NCBI GenBank assembly: GCA_014802625.1
Contig: JAAVBX010000020.1
Location: forward strand, 1-59,148
Source of the DNA: a bacterium
GTDB lineage: Bacteria; Bacteroidota; Bacteroidia; Bacteroidales; Muribaculaceae
DNA length: 59,148 bases
Direction: 5' to 3'
Under the pieces are notes generated by a model. The model had not been told where the DNA came from. It did no database searches and saw nothing but the letters and a program-made list of their open reading frames with translations. Every line of letters begins with the position of its first letter. Positions within the stretch are counted from its first letter, which is position 1. Shown here piece after piece: positions 1-59,148 of this stretch. Both the position numbers and the translations under genes were made by a program.

Positions 1-121
1 GCGACGGCGAGAAAAATATGTATGTGAAGAACGATATTTCGCATTATGCAACCTGTACGTATTAAACAGAGCATAAAGTTAGCCATAAAATCCCATATTT
101 GCAACAACCACTCCAACAGGT

Positions 122-340
122 ACTCCATAGACCATCATCCCATCGTTCCAGCGTAATATTTTTCTATGGCCCTATGGCCTCTGGTCCCTGGAGCCCCCCC
201 CCGCTGCACACCCGACCCCATGGTCCTATGGCCTATGGTCTATGGACAACCCCCCGCTGCTCACCCGACCCCATGGTCCTATGGCCTATGGTCTATGGAG
301 AACCTCCCGCTCGTCCGGCCCCCATGGTCTATGGAGAAAA
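122..340. repeat. Palindromic repeat locus L (inverted arms of the ATGGTCTATGG family)
   Basis: One reverse-oriented unit lies at about 122-147 (CTCCATAGACCATCAT). It is followed by an A+T-rich centre at about 150-163, then forward units. A degenerate first unit starts near 164, good units start at 218 and 271 (53 bp apart), and a truncated unit starts at 322 (51 bp later). The forward core reads GGTCCTATGG, CCT, ATGGTCTATGGA. The inter-core filler is similar between neighbouring units. The arm-centre-arm plan matches the two loci at the right end of the window. The reading frames here are translations of the repeat and show no protein family. Bases 1-121 hold nothing I can assign. Confidence 0.85.
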
Positions 341-55236: not shown

Positions 55237-56712
55237 ATGAAAAAAATCAAATTCATATCAGCCATAGCTCTGACCTTGATGCTGGGAGCCTGTGAAAACT
55301 ACGATCTCCCCAATCCTCCCGGTCAGACCAATCCGGCACCCGACGGCTACTTCGAGAACAGCAGCATCGCTCTGGAGCCGGTAACCGCTACCCTCGATCT
55401 CACTCAGCTCAACGCTGACAATAAGTTCGCAACAGTGGCCAACATCACCACTCTTGAGAACTTCCCAGAGGGCTACACTCTTGAGATTGACATGCAGGTC
55501 GGCTCTAACGATCAGTTCGCAAATGTCACTACACTCTCCACTGTCATCGAGGGCGACGCAGTCACTGTCAACCCGGACCTCGTCAACGGTGCGATCCAGG
55601 ATATTATTACACGCGAACCCGGCACTCTCAACGTGCCCGCACGATTCATCGCCTACGCCACACGTGAGACAACACGCATGCGCCTCGGTGGTGTCGACGC
55701 ATTCTTCGGTCAAGAGCTCCTCTCTGTGAAGACTCTTGATTATGGTAAGGTCATCGAAGATAGCTACTACTTCGTTCCCTGCAATGCATCCGGCACACCC
55801 GAACTGACCAAAGCCGTACGCATGGAGAATACAGCAGGCTCCGGCGTATCACCCTACGACAACCCTGAATTCGCTATCAAGCTCGACATCCCCGCTGACA
55901 CAGAATACCGTTGGGTGATCGCTCCCGCAAGCTCCATGTCGGCAGGCGTATCCGCAACCTTCTTCGGCTGCAACGCAACGGAAGATGGCATGAGCGGTAA
56001 ACTGGCCACAGGCTACACCGCAGGTCTTATGCCTATCAACGGTGCTGTCCTCGTGACTGTCAACATGGATGAGGAATCCTACACTCTGAGCTACGCATTC
56101 GACATCATCTATCCTCTCTACAGCGGTAAGACTGACGCCGTGCTTCCCCTCTACACGACCAACTACATCAACTACACCGGCGTGACAGCCATCAACCAAC
56201 GCTGGAATATCTACACTCAGGCCGACAAGGAGGGTGTGATATTCAAGGTTGACGATGAAGTTGAAGCAGAAGTTAGCGAGGATGGCCTCGTGCAGACCGG
56301 CGGTATCAGCCAGAGCGGCTCGACCGCTATCTCAGCTCCCGTAAAGGGTAACACTCTCTATTGGGCCGACGTAAATCTCGTGCAGAAGACTTACTCCATC
56401 AGCGCAATCCAGACTATCTCTGTCATCGGTGCCCACAACGGTTGGGACCTCGCCACTGCTCCGGCATTGACTCCCTCGAAGAACCTCCACACCTGGACCA
56501 TCTCCGATGTAGAACTCGACGGCGAGTTCAAGTTCAACTGCAACAACGACTGGACTCTCGACTTCGGCGGAACTCCCAACCCCGATTACTCCGGACAATC
56601 CGTCTACACTCTTGCATTCAAGGGTGGCAACATGAGCATCGAGAAGGGCAAATATGACATCGAGATTAACTTCGAAACATATCCCTATATCGCTACTTTC
56701 ACCAAAAAGTAA
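55237..56712 (+). CDS. SusF-like outer membrane lipoprotein with carbohydrate-binding modules
   Basis: This 491-residue lipoprotein has a lipobox (MLGAC, Cys near 19). An N-terminal DUF5115/SusE-like region (about 35-190) is followed by two or more CBM58-like modules. The last one is best seen in SVIGAHNGWDLATAPALTP (near 395) and LDGEFKFNCNNDWTLDFGG (near 425), typical of SusE/SusF starch-binding domains. It probably holds starch at the cell surface. It is the last gene of the sus operon, before a strong terminator. Confidence 0.85.
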   Translation: MKKIKFISAIALTLMLGACENYDLPNPPGQTNPAPDGYFENSSIALEPVTATLDLTQLNADNKFATVANITTLENFPEGYTLEIDMQVGSNDQFANVTTLSTVIEGDAVTVNPDLVNGAIQDIITREPGTLNVPARFIAYATRETTRMRLGGVDAFFGQELLSVKTLDYGKVIEDSYYFVPCNASGTPELTKAVRMENTAGSGVSPYDNPEFAIKLDIPADTEYRWVIAPASSMSAGVSATFFGCNATEDGMSGKLATGYTAGLMPINGAVLVTVNMDEESYTLSYAFDIIYPLYSGKTDAVLPLYTTNYINYTGVTAINQRWNIYTQADKEGVIFKVDDEVEAEVSEDGLVQTGGISQSGSTAISAPVKGNTLYWADVNLVQKTYSISAIQTISVIGAHNGWDLATAPALTPSKNLHTWTISDVELDGEFKFNCNNDWTLDFGGTPNPDYSGQSVYTLAFKGGNMSIEKGKYDIEINFETYPYIATFTKK

Positions 56713-56741
56713 GTACCCGGGATAAATTCACCCACCTATGA

Positions 56742-56776
56742 ATAAGGGGAGGCTACCTCAGATAGCCTCCCCTTAT
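56742..56776 (+). terminator. Terminator of the sus operon
   Basis: ATAAGGGGAGGCTA (56742-56755) pairs with TAGCCTCCCCTTAT (56763-56776), then CTGTTTTC. It lies 30 bp after the stop. Confidence 0.88.
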
Positions 56777-56862
56777 CTGTTTTCAAAACGCCGGCAAATC
56801 TACCGAATTATCTCAACAACATAGACTCACGAAAAATTCAAGGGAAAAAATTCATAAATATT

Positions 56863-56893
56863 TTGCAGATTTAAAAAAATTTATATAACTTTG
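56863..56893 (+). promoter_or_regulatory. Promoter of the secreted CBM-like gene
   Basis: TTG (56863-56865), 20 bp, TAACTTTG (56886-56893): an excellent match, with a leader of about 110 nt to the ATG at 57010. Confidence 0.78.
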
Positions 56894-57009
56894 TCACCAA
56901 ATACAAGAAGCGCGATTTTGATGCTAAATGAAAAACTCGGCATTACGCTACTTCCTCAACTTGTGCTGATAAAACTAAATAAATAACTTAACCAAAAATC
57001 TACTTCACG

Positions 57010-57918
57010 ATGAAGAAATTTTACGCTTTCGCAGCAGCAGCTGCTATAGCTATCTCAGCTAACGCACAGGCGCTCTACATGACAGGTGCAAGCGACAACG
57101 GTCCAGAAGAGGGTGGTCTCCCCGCACAGTGGGCACCCAGCAACCCCGCAGAGTTCGAGATAGTTAACGGTGTATATCAGATCACTGTCAACGGTCTCTC
57201 TCAGTTCAAGGTTTCCACTGCGAAATCCGAGGTAGAGGGTGACTGGACCGACTTCAATGCAGGTGCTCTCACTTGCAATTATGGCGAAGAAGCCGGCGCA
57301 ACTGTAGCACTGACTGAAGGCGACGCCAATATCATGTGCCCCTGGACAGGCGACTGGACTGTAGTGGTAGCAGCCGACCTCTCCACAATCACAATGACAA
57401 CTGACACTCCCAAGCCCACCGGTGGCCCTGAGCTCTATCTCCGTGGTGACATGAACAGCTGGGACAACATCGAGGGCTGGATGTTCGAGCAGGTCAGCGA
57501 CAACGTATTCAAATTCGTCTGCGGCGAGGATCAGAAGATCCAGGCATCCGAGACTTTCAAGGTAGCTGACGCAAGCTGGGCGAAATACAACTTCGGTGCA
57601 GGTGAGGAAGCAGAGATTCTTCTCGACCTTGAGACTGAGATTTTCCAGGGCAGCAATACCAACATGACTGTCGGTGAGGAATGGAACGGCGTTGCATGGC
57701 TCTGCCTCGACTATGAAGGTGCTGTTATGTTCGTTCTTTCCAACGACAAGGAGTACGTTCCCGAATTCTTAGACTCCAATGCAGTTGAGACTGTTGCAGT
57801 TGAGAACGCTCCCGTTTACTACTACAACCTCCAGGGTGTTCGTGTTGAGAACCCCGTTAACGGCATCTACGTTAAAGTCGTAGGTGAGAAGGCTGCGAAA
57901 GTCCTCTTCAACAACTAA
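57010..57918 (+). CDS. Secreted protein with starch-binding-like module and T9SS-like tail
   Basis: This 302-residue exported protein has a signal peptide (about 1-19, Ala-rich, ends SANA). The middle contains ELYLRGDMNSWDN near residue 142, like the first strand of SusE/F or CBM48-like modules. An earlier related segment starts LYMTGASDNG near 22, suggesting two tandem modules. The C-terminus (YYNLQGVRVENPVNGIYVK, then KAAKVLFNN) resembles a type IX secretion sorting tail. Codon use favours highly expressed forms by eye. It sits downstream of the sus operon with its own promoter and may help hold glucan outside the cell (inference). Confidence 0.78.
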   Translation: MKKFYAFAAAAAIAISANAQALYMTGASDNGPEEGGLPAQWAPSNPAEFEIVNGVYQITVNGLSQFKVSTAKSEVEGDWTDFNAGALTCNYGEEAGATVALTEGDANIMCPWTGDWTVVVAADLSTITMTTDTPKPTGGPELYLRGDMNSWDNIEGWMFEQVSDNVFKFVCGEDQKIQASETFKVADASWAKYNFGAGEEAEILLDLETEIFQGSNTNMTVGEEWNGVAWLCLDYEGAVMFVLSNDKEYVPEFLDSNAVETVAVENAPVYYYNLQGVRVENPVNGIYVKVVGEKAAKVLFNN

Positions 57919-57947
57919 TCCATAGAACCCATCTTCCAACGTATATC

Positions 57948-57978
57948 AAGCGGCGTCATCCCCCCGATGGCGCCGCTT
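57948..57978 (+). terminator. Terminator-like stem after the secreted CBM-like gene
   Basis: AAGCGGCGTCATC (57948-57960) pairs with GATGGCGCCGCTT (57966-57978) around CCCCC, with one G-T pair. The sequence between the stop and this stem (about 57920-57945) looks like a decayed repeat unit (CCATAGAACC ... CCAACGTATA). Confidence 0.65.
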
Positions 57979-58003
57979 CCCGTATTCCTCCAGTGACCAC
58001 TGG

Positions 58004-58310
58004 CCAGGGATCCAACGTACACAAGGATTCTCCATAGACCAACAACCAGAGAACCAACGTACACAAGGGTTCTCCAGAGACCAACAACCAGGGAACCATA
58101 GTATACGAGGATTCTCCATAGACCAACAACCAGAGAACCAACGTATACGAGGATTCTCCATAGACCAACAACCAGGGATCCAACGTACACAAGGGTTCTC
58201 CAGAGACCAACAACCAGAGAACCAACGTATACGAGGATTCTCCATAGACCTATAACCAGGGATCCAACGTATACGAGGATTCTCCATAGACCAATAACCA
58301 GAGAACCATG
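58004..58310 (-). repeat. Reverse array A: seven 42-bp units of the ATGGTCTATGG repeat family
   Basis: Units begin at 58004, 58046, 58088, 58130, 58172, 58214 and 58256 with an exact 42-bp period, plus a partial unit at 58298. Each contains CCAGAGAACC or CCAGGGATCC, AACGTATACG and TTCTCCATAGACCAACAA. All three minus-strand frames stay open because 42 is divisible by three, giving a 14-residue peptide repeat; this is a by-product, not a protein. It forms the left arm of a palindromic locus whose A+T-rich centre is 58309-58330. Confidence 0.95.
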
Positions 58311-58330
58311 ATAATATATAGAAGAGAACA

Positions 58331-58508
58331 GTTGGTCCTATGGTTTAATGGTCTATGGAGTACCCACACGGTCCCGGCAAGAACCGATGGTCCCATGGTA
58401 TAATGGTCTATGGAGAACCCACACGGTCCCGGCAAGAAACGTTGGTCCTATGGTTTAATGGTCTATGGAGAACCCACACGGTCCCGGCAAGAACCGTTGG
58501 TCCTATGG
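58331..58508 (+). repeat. Forward array B: three 55-bp units leading into the GxxExxY gene
   Basis: Units start at 58331, 58386 and 58441 (55 bp), with a partial fourth at 58496. The core is TTGGTCCTATGG, TTTA, ATGGTCTATGGAGAACCC; the filler CACACGGTCCCGGCAAGAA is conserved between units. The core is the reverse complement of array A's core, so A and B make a large interrupted palindrome. The fourth, partial unit ends in TCCTATGG, whose ATG (58505) is in frame with the GxxExxY gene. Confidence 0.95.
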
Positions 58509-58906
58509 AACGTAAATATAATGAAACTATGGATATAAAAGAATTGATTGATCGTATTCACGATGCCGCATTCGAAGTTCGTAAACATCTGTTACCCGGA
58601 TACTTAGAGAATGTTTATAAGACTGCTTTACTACTAGAATTAAGGAGCAACGGTCTGAAGGTGGAAACCGAAGTAGAAACAAATGTAAAATATAAAGGAG
58701 TCAATGTAGGGAAATACCGCATAGATATGCTGGTGGAGGATTGTGTCATAATTGAATTGAAAGTTGCTTCTATGCTTACTACCGCCCATACATTTCAGAT
58801 TGTCAACTACCTAACTACCACGGGAATCAACGACGGATTACTCATAAACTTCGGAACTGAATTCCAGTTTCAGCACAAGACACGTATCTACAACAAGCAC
58901 TCATAA
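58505..58906 (+). CDS. GxxExxY protein (PD-(D/E)XK nuclease fold) embedded in repeats
   Basis: This 133-residue protein (or 125 if the ATG at 58529, MDIKELIDRIH, is used) has the name-giving motif G-Y-L-E-N-V-Y. A PD-(D/E)XK-like active site follows: Asp in YRIDMLVED and E-x-K in VIIELKVAS (Asp66, Glu76, Lys78 in the short form). Length fits the PDDEXK_3/GxxExxY family, whose biochemical role is unknown. The gene is visibly more A+T-rich than the surrounding genes, suggesting transfer. It is flanked on both sides by inverted repeat arrays with no other gene. The 58505 start lies inside the last repeat unit. No promoter or terminator of usual form is seen. Confidence 0.88.
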   Translation: MERKYNETMDIKELIDRIHDAAFEVRKHLLPGYLENVYKTALLLELRSNGLKVETEVETNVKYKGVNVGKYRIDMLVEDCVIIELKVASMLTTAHTFQIVNYLTTTGINDGLLINFGTEFQFQHKTRIYNKHS

Positions 58907-58918
58907 AACTCCATCGAT

Positions 58919-58990
58919 CCTCCATAGACCATTAACCATAGAACCAGCGTTCTCGAAATTTCTCCATAGACCATTAACCGTAGAACCATG
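58919..58990 (-). repeat. Reverse array C1: two 42-bp units
   Basis: Units start at 58920 and 58962 (CTCCATAGACCATTAACC, then ATAGAACCA or GTAGAACCA). It begins about 13 bp after the GxxExxY stop. It is the left arm of a second palindrome whose A+T-rich centre is 58991-59010. Confidence 0.9.
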
Positions 58991-59010
58991 TGCATATATG
59001 AAAATTTAAC

Positions 59011-59148
59011 GATGGTCCCATGGCCTGATGGTCTATGGAGAACCTCCCGACGCAGCAAGATCCGCTGGTCCCATGGCCTGATGGTCTATGGAGAACCTCC
59101 CGACGCAGCAAGATCCGCTGGTCCCATGGCCTGATGGTCTATGGAGAA
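59011..59148 (+). repeat. Forward array C2: 53-bp units, cut by the window end
   Basis: Units start at 59011, 59064 and 59117, with core GGTCCCATGGCCTG, ATGGTCTATGGAGAACC and filler TCCCGACGCAGCAAGATCCG identical between the two complete units. The third is cut by the window edge, so the array probably continues. With C1 it forms the second palindromic locus beside the GxxExxY gene. Confidence 0.92.

Follow-up and report, generated by a model that had tools for sequence, protein, structure and literature searches.

A GxxExxY nuclease gene enclosed by repeat palindromes in a Muribaculaceae genome: a probable one-gene selfish element

The contig JAAVBX010000020.1 of a Muribaculaceae genome (GenBank assembly GCA_014802625.1), analysed over its full 59,148 nucleotides and referred to below as the window, carries at its right end a single gene of the GxxExxY family of PD-(D/E)XK nucleases between two large repeat palindromes. 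This block is probably a one-gene, palindrome-bounded selfish element whose nuclease is matched to its own repeat arms. The gene and its arms form a unit that is gained, maintained by purifying selection and lost through decay, and that has a matching repeat family of its own. The layout recurs in distant bacteria, which points to a kind of one-gene mobile element that is widespread and apparently undescribed.

The nuclease gene and the palindrome-bounded block

The open reading frame (ORF) in the block belongs to the GxxExxY family (PF13366, 122 bits at a cut-off of 22; TIGR04256, 125 bits at a cut-off of 35). A preliminary description made from the letters of the window had read a GxxExxY motif and D...ExK residues in it; both are present, the motif reading GYLENVY. 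Across 109 GxxExxY proteins, the active-site D, E, K and Q are invariant (100%) wherever the position holds a residue. The same description had called the gene A+T-richer than its surroundings, in agreement with a GC content of 0.376 for the gene, 0.485 and 0.500 for the flanking palindromes and 0.541 for the window. As homologues start near the second ATG, the true start may be at 58529. No known transposase or recombinase was found within the block, in which the PF13366 gene is the sole gene between the upstream stop codon and sufB, and the gene matches PF13366 only, with no HUH/Y1 transposase (TnpA-REP) detected. A search of sequences of solved structures with the family profile returned nothing significant (best E 0.65; Cas4 chains 0.72 and 0.91). 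One match of the single sequence to the structure set, a ketol-acid reductoisomerase chain (E 8e-4), was judged to be due to chance.

On both sides of the gene lie palindromic loci composed of reverse units, an A+T-rich centre of about 20 bp and forward units. This arrangement, proposed in the preliminary description, was confirmed by the following coordinates and periods.

57917..57929, no strand: outer inverted repeat on the left, AATCCATAGAACC, which overlaps the upstream gene's stop codon
about 57988..58302, minus strand: outer arm of the left palindrome, reverse units with a 42-bp period (CCATAGACCA...)
58306..58328, no strand: A+T-rich centre of the left palindrome, GC 0.26
58329..58504, plus strand: inner arm of the left palindrome, forward units with a 55-bp period (GGTCCTATGG...ATGGTCTATGGAGAACC)
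58505..58906, plus strand: gene of the GxxExxY protein, PD-(D/E)XK nuclease family; alternative start 58529
58918..58987, minus strand: inner arm of the right palindrome, reverse units
58988..59010, no strand: A+T-rich centre of the right palindrome, GC 0.22
59011..59148, plus strand: outer arm of the right palindrome, forward units with a 53-bp period; truncated where the contig ends, the remainder lying on contig C14 (L033 from base 87)
contig C14, L033 124-136: right outer inverted repeat GGTTCTATGGATT, just before the sufB promoter region
121..338, no strand: second array of the window repeat family, gene-less, at the other end of the window; an orthologous array occurs in genome G056 (L382)

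With at most 2 mismatches allowed, the window contains 19 matches to the core TGGTCTATGGAGAA, against 0.38 expected; none of 100 shuffles reached 19. Both loci fold stably, with z-scores of -11.6 for the left locus (57985-58512, as DNA) and -8.3 for the right locus (58907-59148, as RNA). No Rfam match was obtained in 56700-59148. The perfect 13-bp inverted repeat formed by AATCCATAGAACC and GGTTCTATGGATT represents terminal inverted repeats bounding the whole block, which measures about 1.28 kb as assembled and completed by C14, although array copy number may be collapsed. Its neighbours are a gene for a secreted-looking protein upstream and sufB (Pfam SufB/D match) downstream.

Within genome G000, whose assembly of 24 contigs is 69% complete, the window is contig C20. 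The first 86 bp of contig C14, from the same genome, are identical to the window end, and beyond them C14 runs on to sufB. This join is supported by locus L034 of the metagenome-assembled genome (MAG) G056, derived from a bank vole as inferred from the isolate code, in which a single contig holds the same order, with repeats that have diverged and a protein that is 72% identical. In the vole genome, a 14-bp version of the outer inverted repeat bounds a block of 1,088 bp.

Contigs C20 and C9 of G000 share their first ~119 bp (window 1-119, L032 1-119) and diverge within repeats, resembling a branch in the assembly graph. On C9 (L032 1-1420) and at locus L385 of G056, arrays of the window family flank a helix-turn-helix (HTH) gene and a short piece resembling a HipA N-terminal domain.

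Inverted repeats beside GxxExxY genes in other genomes

We aligned the 220-bp flanks of each gene locally, one of them reverse-complemented, and counted a locus as positive at p≤0.01 in 200 dinucleotide shuffles; 1 of 30 phylum, 9 of 26 genus and 6 of 30 ParE loci were too short for this analysis. Inverted repeats were detected at 22 of 29 GxxExxY loci of the Bacteroidota sample and at none of 24 ParE loci (Fisher 3.5e-9), so the enrichment of palindromes at GxxExxY genes that the preliminary description had put forward for checking does exist. GxxExxY loci of the genus were positive in 8 of 17 cases, further copies from multi-copy genomes in 22 of 31, and records of a plasmid collection in 3 of 7. 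Five MAGs, four of them from other phyla (two Chloroflexi, two Acidobacteria, one Prevotellaceae; via L035-L039), yielded 22 matches, of which 14 were tested and 10 were positive. A sufB-fragment control gave 0 of 24; it is a weak control, since the query covers the first 156 residues only and thereby places one 'flank' inside the gene. An earlier version of the flank alignment, with poorer start codons and a threshold of z>4, had given 17/29 for the phylum, 8/17 for the genus, 11/30 for TIGR02436 loci and 0/24 for ParE. When similarity in either orientation was scored over 450 bp, 15 of 17 genus, 18 of 29 phylum and 6 of 30 TIGR02436 loci were positive, compared to 8 of 120 neighbouring genes drawn at random from 287 and 7 of 24 ParE loci, all seven with direct and not inverted similarity.

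Inspection of flanks by eye (26 loci of the genus, 14 of the 30 from the phylum and 5 in other MAGs) revealed repeats of differing sequence beside nearly all genes. They share a theme of 7-9-nt units (CACAGAG, CGCAGAG, CGCAAAG, CCATAGA), with the upstream arm in one sense and the downstream arm in the opposite one. The unit CRCNRAG, counted at 83 loci, occurred 129 times in sense and 55 times in antisense upstream, and 42 and 137 times, respectively, downstream (the genes themselves would account for 15.6 and 3.7). The repeat arms extend as far as the nuclease gene's start and stop codons. In Gemmatirosa kalamazoonensis (L123, NZ_CP007129.1), a member of another phylum, a GxxExxY gene was found in two tblastn pieces with a complete palindrome, by eye, on each side, as in the window. 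No match was obtained among 50,697 phage records; a pattern scan of IMG/VR yielded one viral contig, which by eye also has inverted ends. GxxExxY domains also lie within open frames of 883 and 402 codons and are possibly fused there to other domains (G086:C9:91044, G114:C1:72354, G098:C22:338277; G182:C424:251).

GxxExxY genes are not the only ones with this layout. Genes of the TIGR02436 four-helix-bundle family gave inverted repeats at 14 of 30 loci by the same flank alignment; these loci, from Bacteroidota and outside rRNA (L160-L189), have other units of about 7 nt, for example GTACCAAGTACAATGTACCAAGTA, as inverted repeats hugging the gene. The window ORF itself is PF13366, and no TIGR02436 match was found in G000.

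The genes show a marked preference in orientation. Both neighbours were found at 78 loci, at 55 of which the GxxExxY gene is co-directional with both; where the neighbours share a direction, it follows them in 55 of 60 cases and opposes them in 5 (p 1e-11). Copies also sit inside tight gene pairs, for instance that of fabD and fabG in a Sphingomonas record, or behind radA in one of Bacteroides finegoldii. This preference and the stable folding of both loci would also suit an element acting at the RNA level, in which the arms form a long transcript stem (an RNase III site or terminator) that neutralises insertion into an operon, as in 23S rRNA intervening sequences, with the nuclease as separate cargo. 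The intervening sequence of Coxiella provides a parallel, with inverted ends, one small ORF and excision by RNase III (PMC4990558). However, gene-less palindromes are more numerous than gene copies in the four genomes counted and sit between genes of any orientation, and the match of repeat family to nuclease is left unexplained. We therefore consider this explanation very improbable, although it is compatible with a selfish element and does not exclude it.

Empty and decayed sites and the match of repeats to nuclease

The preliminary description had proposed a comparison of empty sites between strains. Such sites were found at two unrelated loci. At the first, the sufB query was present in 51 of 61 same-genus genomes, and the best 30 of the 51 loci were read. 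Five of them (G039, G007, G047, G035 and G017) have only 186, 184, 161, 153 and 139 bp, respectively, between the neighbours and no nuclease; the tail of the upstream protein is of the same kind there, and the sequence ahead of sufB is similar. The words CTATGG and CCATAG are absent from all five, whereas positions 57919-59148 of the window contain ten of each. Most other sufB loci examined were uninformative because the upstream gene differs. A sixth genome, G046 (L134), has 281 bp at this site and carries a different short repeat (of the CCTCTACGAGAA type) instead of the window family.

The second site lies upstream of scpB in one genus of another Bacteroidota family and is present in all 8 genomes searched. 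In three genomes (G184, G129 and G125) it is empty, the upstream stop codon overlapping the scpB start or lying within a few bases of it. Four genomes have a filled site, with the gene flanked by ACCACAGAG... and ...TTTGTGGT; one of these copies, in G086, has lost the ATG together with the motif residues G and Y. In G098, both repeat ends are kept and the gene has decayed. The ratio of nonsynonymous to synonymous substitution rates (dN/dS) among the three intact orthologues is 0.02-0.13, and in pairs with G086 it is 0.13-0.16. The scpB alleles thus represent a cycle of gain and decay.

The repeats were then compared with the nucleases beside them. In the genus, the window repeat pattern occurs in 2 of 111 genomes, G000 and G056, which are the only two with nucleases at least 69% identical; the next-nearest nucleases reach 53% identity and below, and any nuclease match occurs in 34 of the 111. 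Recurrent 7-mers were present in the flanks of 103 loci, compared across 109 distinct proteins. Between genomes, the proportion of pairs sharing any recurrent 7-mer rose from 11% at <40% protein identity to 37% at ≥60%, although chance could account for some of the shared words, which are A+T-rich. Repeat words correlated with protein identity between genomes (Mantel r 0.18; 5,147 pairs at <70% identity; 0 of 2,000 permutations), and within genomes they were shared by 8 of 17 pairs at ≥50% identity versus 9 of 75 below (p 0.0025). K-mer sharing over whole flanks rose only slightly with protein identity below 70%. Judged by these words, the repeats track nuclease similarity more than the host.

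Gene-less copies of the repeats are common. Among 118 sampled Bacteroidota genomes, 59 of which have GxxExxY, the strict CACAGAG tandem pattern was found in 30 of the 59 with the gene and in 3 of the 59 without. Around 20 repeat copies, partly chosen for close opposite matches, both orientations were present in 16 regions, two of which contain a PF13366 gene. An objection raised in the preliminary description, that the repeats might lie equally near many unrelated genes, holds in part. Of 56 strict-pattern copies in four genomes, only 4 have a listed GxxExxY gene within 0.8 kb (two further GxxExxY places, in G095, were unlisted), and in G056 the window pattern has 22 matches on 8 contigs with one nuclease gene (two of these contigs share a flank and may be one locus). 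As a separate qualification, TIGR02436 genes are flanked alike.

These distributions bear on two further explanations. The palindromes could be a host feature, the nuclease being kept to process their hairpins in an SbcCD-like or resolvase-like manner and not spreading itself. Such host-side repeat maintenance is unlikely given the patchy distribution of the gene in genus and phylum, the existence of empty and decayed sites, and repeat words that follow the nuclease and not the genome. Alternatively, the palindromes could spread by other means and merely mark tolerant intergenic sites where small genes land, among them GxxExxY, TIGR02436 and the HTH/HipA-like remnant on C9. The TIGR02436 loci with this layout and the C9 arrays would agree with such a passenger role, as would one array pair in G056 that flanks a flavin-reductase-like gene. 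Set against it are the lack of inverted repeats at all 24 ParE loci, arms that touch the nuclease gene at its start and stop codons, empty sites without the repeat, and a repeat family that follows the nuclease subfamily; we regard a passenger role as distinctly unlikely.

Several observations weigh against the selfish element that we favour. Neither cleavage of the repeats nor movement of the element was seen. No clear target duplication was found among filled and empty sites, which are too diverged for a firm reading. The inverted-repeat alignment was negative at 7 of 29 phylum, 9 of 17 genus and 4 of 7 plasmid-collection loci. Counting exact 12-mers separated the loci poorly (3/30 phylum, 10/21 genus and 1/5 other loci versus 29/287 control genes; overall, at IR≥40 for inverted repeats, 14/56 GxxExxY loci versus the same controls), a measure that was too blunt, since degenerate units escape it and terminators add noise, and that was replaced by the local flank alignment. 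The restriction of the window pattern to 2 of 111 genomes is partly kinship, because G000 and G056 are each other's closest relatives by sufB (97%). All 18 genomes with at least 3 strict CACAGAG matches have GxxExxY, but all also have TIGR02436 and 16 have ParE, so that shared ancestry and genome type may contribute to the association. Recent multiplication had been expected, yet GxxExxY copies within a genome are as diverged as those between genomes (mean identity 43% and 42%), so no recent bursts are seen. Finally, because TIGR02436 genes share the layout, it may reach beyond GxxExxY, and the nuclease may not be its sole possible partner.

Proposed mechanism and comparison with known systems

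The preliminary description had suggested a self-contained unit, either a mobile or selfish palindrome or a nuclease with its target. The enrichment and the empty sites speak for a unit, whereas the cutting of the repeats and the movement of the element are parts that we infer, and TIGR02436 genes are flanked likewise. In the explanation that we favour, the GxxExxY enzyme would be a minimal Cas4/RecB-like PD-(D/E)XK nuclease accompanied by arms of tandem degenerate 7-9-nt units. Gene and arms insert as a unit between genes, usually co-directionally and leaving the neighbours unbroken; later the gene can decay while the arms stay behind. Gene-less palindromes of the same family are scattered in the genome, like repetitive extragenic palindromes (REPs) beside RAYT genes. 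In the proposed mechanism, exposed single strands or forks may allow the arms to form hairpins or cruciforms, and by analogy to REPtrons (PMC6006769) the nuclease may cut or trim the folded arms as its substrate. By the same analogy, repair off another copy could then carry arms, and at times the gene too, into new intergenic sites. It is conceivable, at somewhat less than even chance, that each GxxExxY subfamily copies a private palindrome family, forming a phylum-spanning class and a second, independent RAYT/REP-like solution, to which TIGR02436 elements may form a sister class.

The GxxExxY family has a name but no assigned function. If it drives its repeat family, this would provide one explanation for many so far unexplained intergenic palindromes, for assembly breaks at them and for small orphan nuclease genes; in G000, 3 contigs end or start inside the repeat palindromes. 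It would also offer a testable non-HUH route to REP-like proliferation. In open PubMed Central papers we found no description of such a GxxExxY-palindrome system, so one may exist elsewhere; GxxExxY itself appeared in two of these papers, incidentally in both. Six typical repeat strings were absent from these papers, and no mention of TIGR04256, IPR026350 or TIGR02436 was found in them.

Among the closest known systems are Cas4/RecB-type PD-(D/E)XK nucleases (e.g. SSO0001, 4ic1) and XisH, the fdxN element excision controlling factor (2okf, 2inb). Cas4 carries an iron-sulphur site formed by four cysteines. In contrast, the window protein has a single cysteine in 133 residues and is linked to palindromes, and no clustered regularly interspaced short palindromic repeats (CRISPR) were seen in the stretch 56500-59148.

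A second relation is to 23S rRNA intervening sequences with an S23p four-helix-bundle ORF. These are likewise short, tolerated insertions with complementary ends and a single small decaying ORF (PMC4990558); the window element differs in its position outside rRNA, its protein (PF13366), its many loci and its gene-less copies. As TIGR02436 genes show the same layout outside rRNA, those loci are a possible chromosomal counterpart of the intervening sequences and a possible lead on their origin, an old open question.

The third comparison is with REP/RAYT systems. REPtrons consist of tnpA-REP genes with flanking REPs (PMC6006769), and a GTAG or CGTC tag at the palindrome end is a REP/RAYT feature (PMC3733652). 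The window element resembles REPtrons in having a single gene between palindromes, many palindromes without a gene elsewhere, a patchy distribution and a palindrome type specific to the protein subclass. In contrast to REP/RAYT systems, its enzyme is of the PD-(D/E)XK type (PF13366) and not an HUH/Y1 transposase, its arms consist of tandem degenerate 7-9-nt units, and whole blocks of gene plus arms have empty sites.
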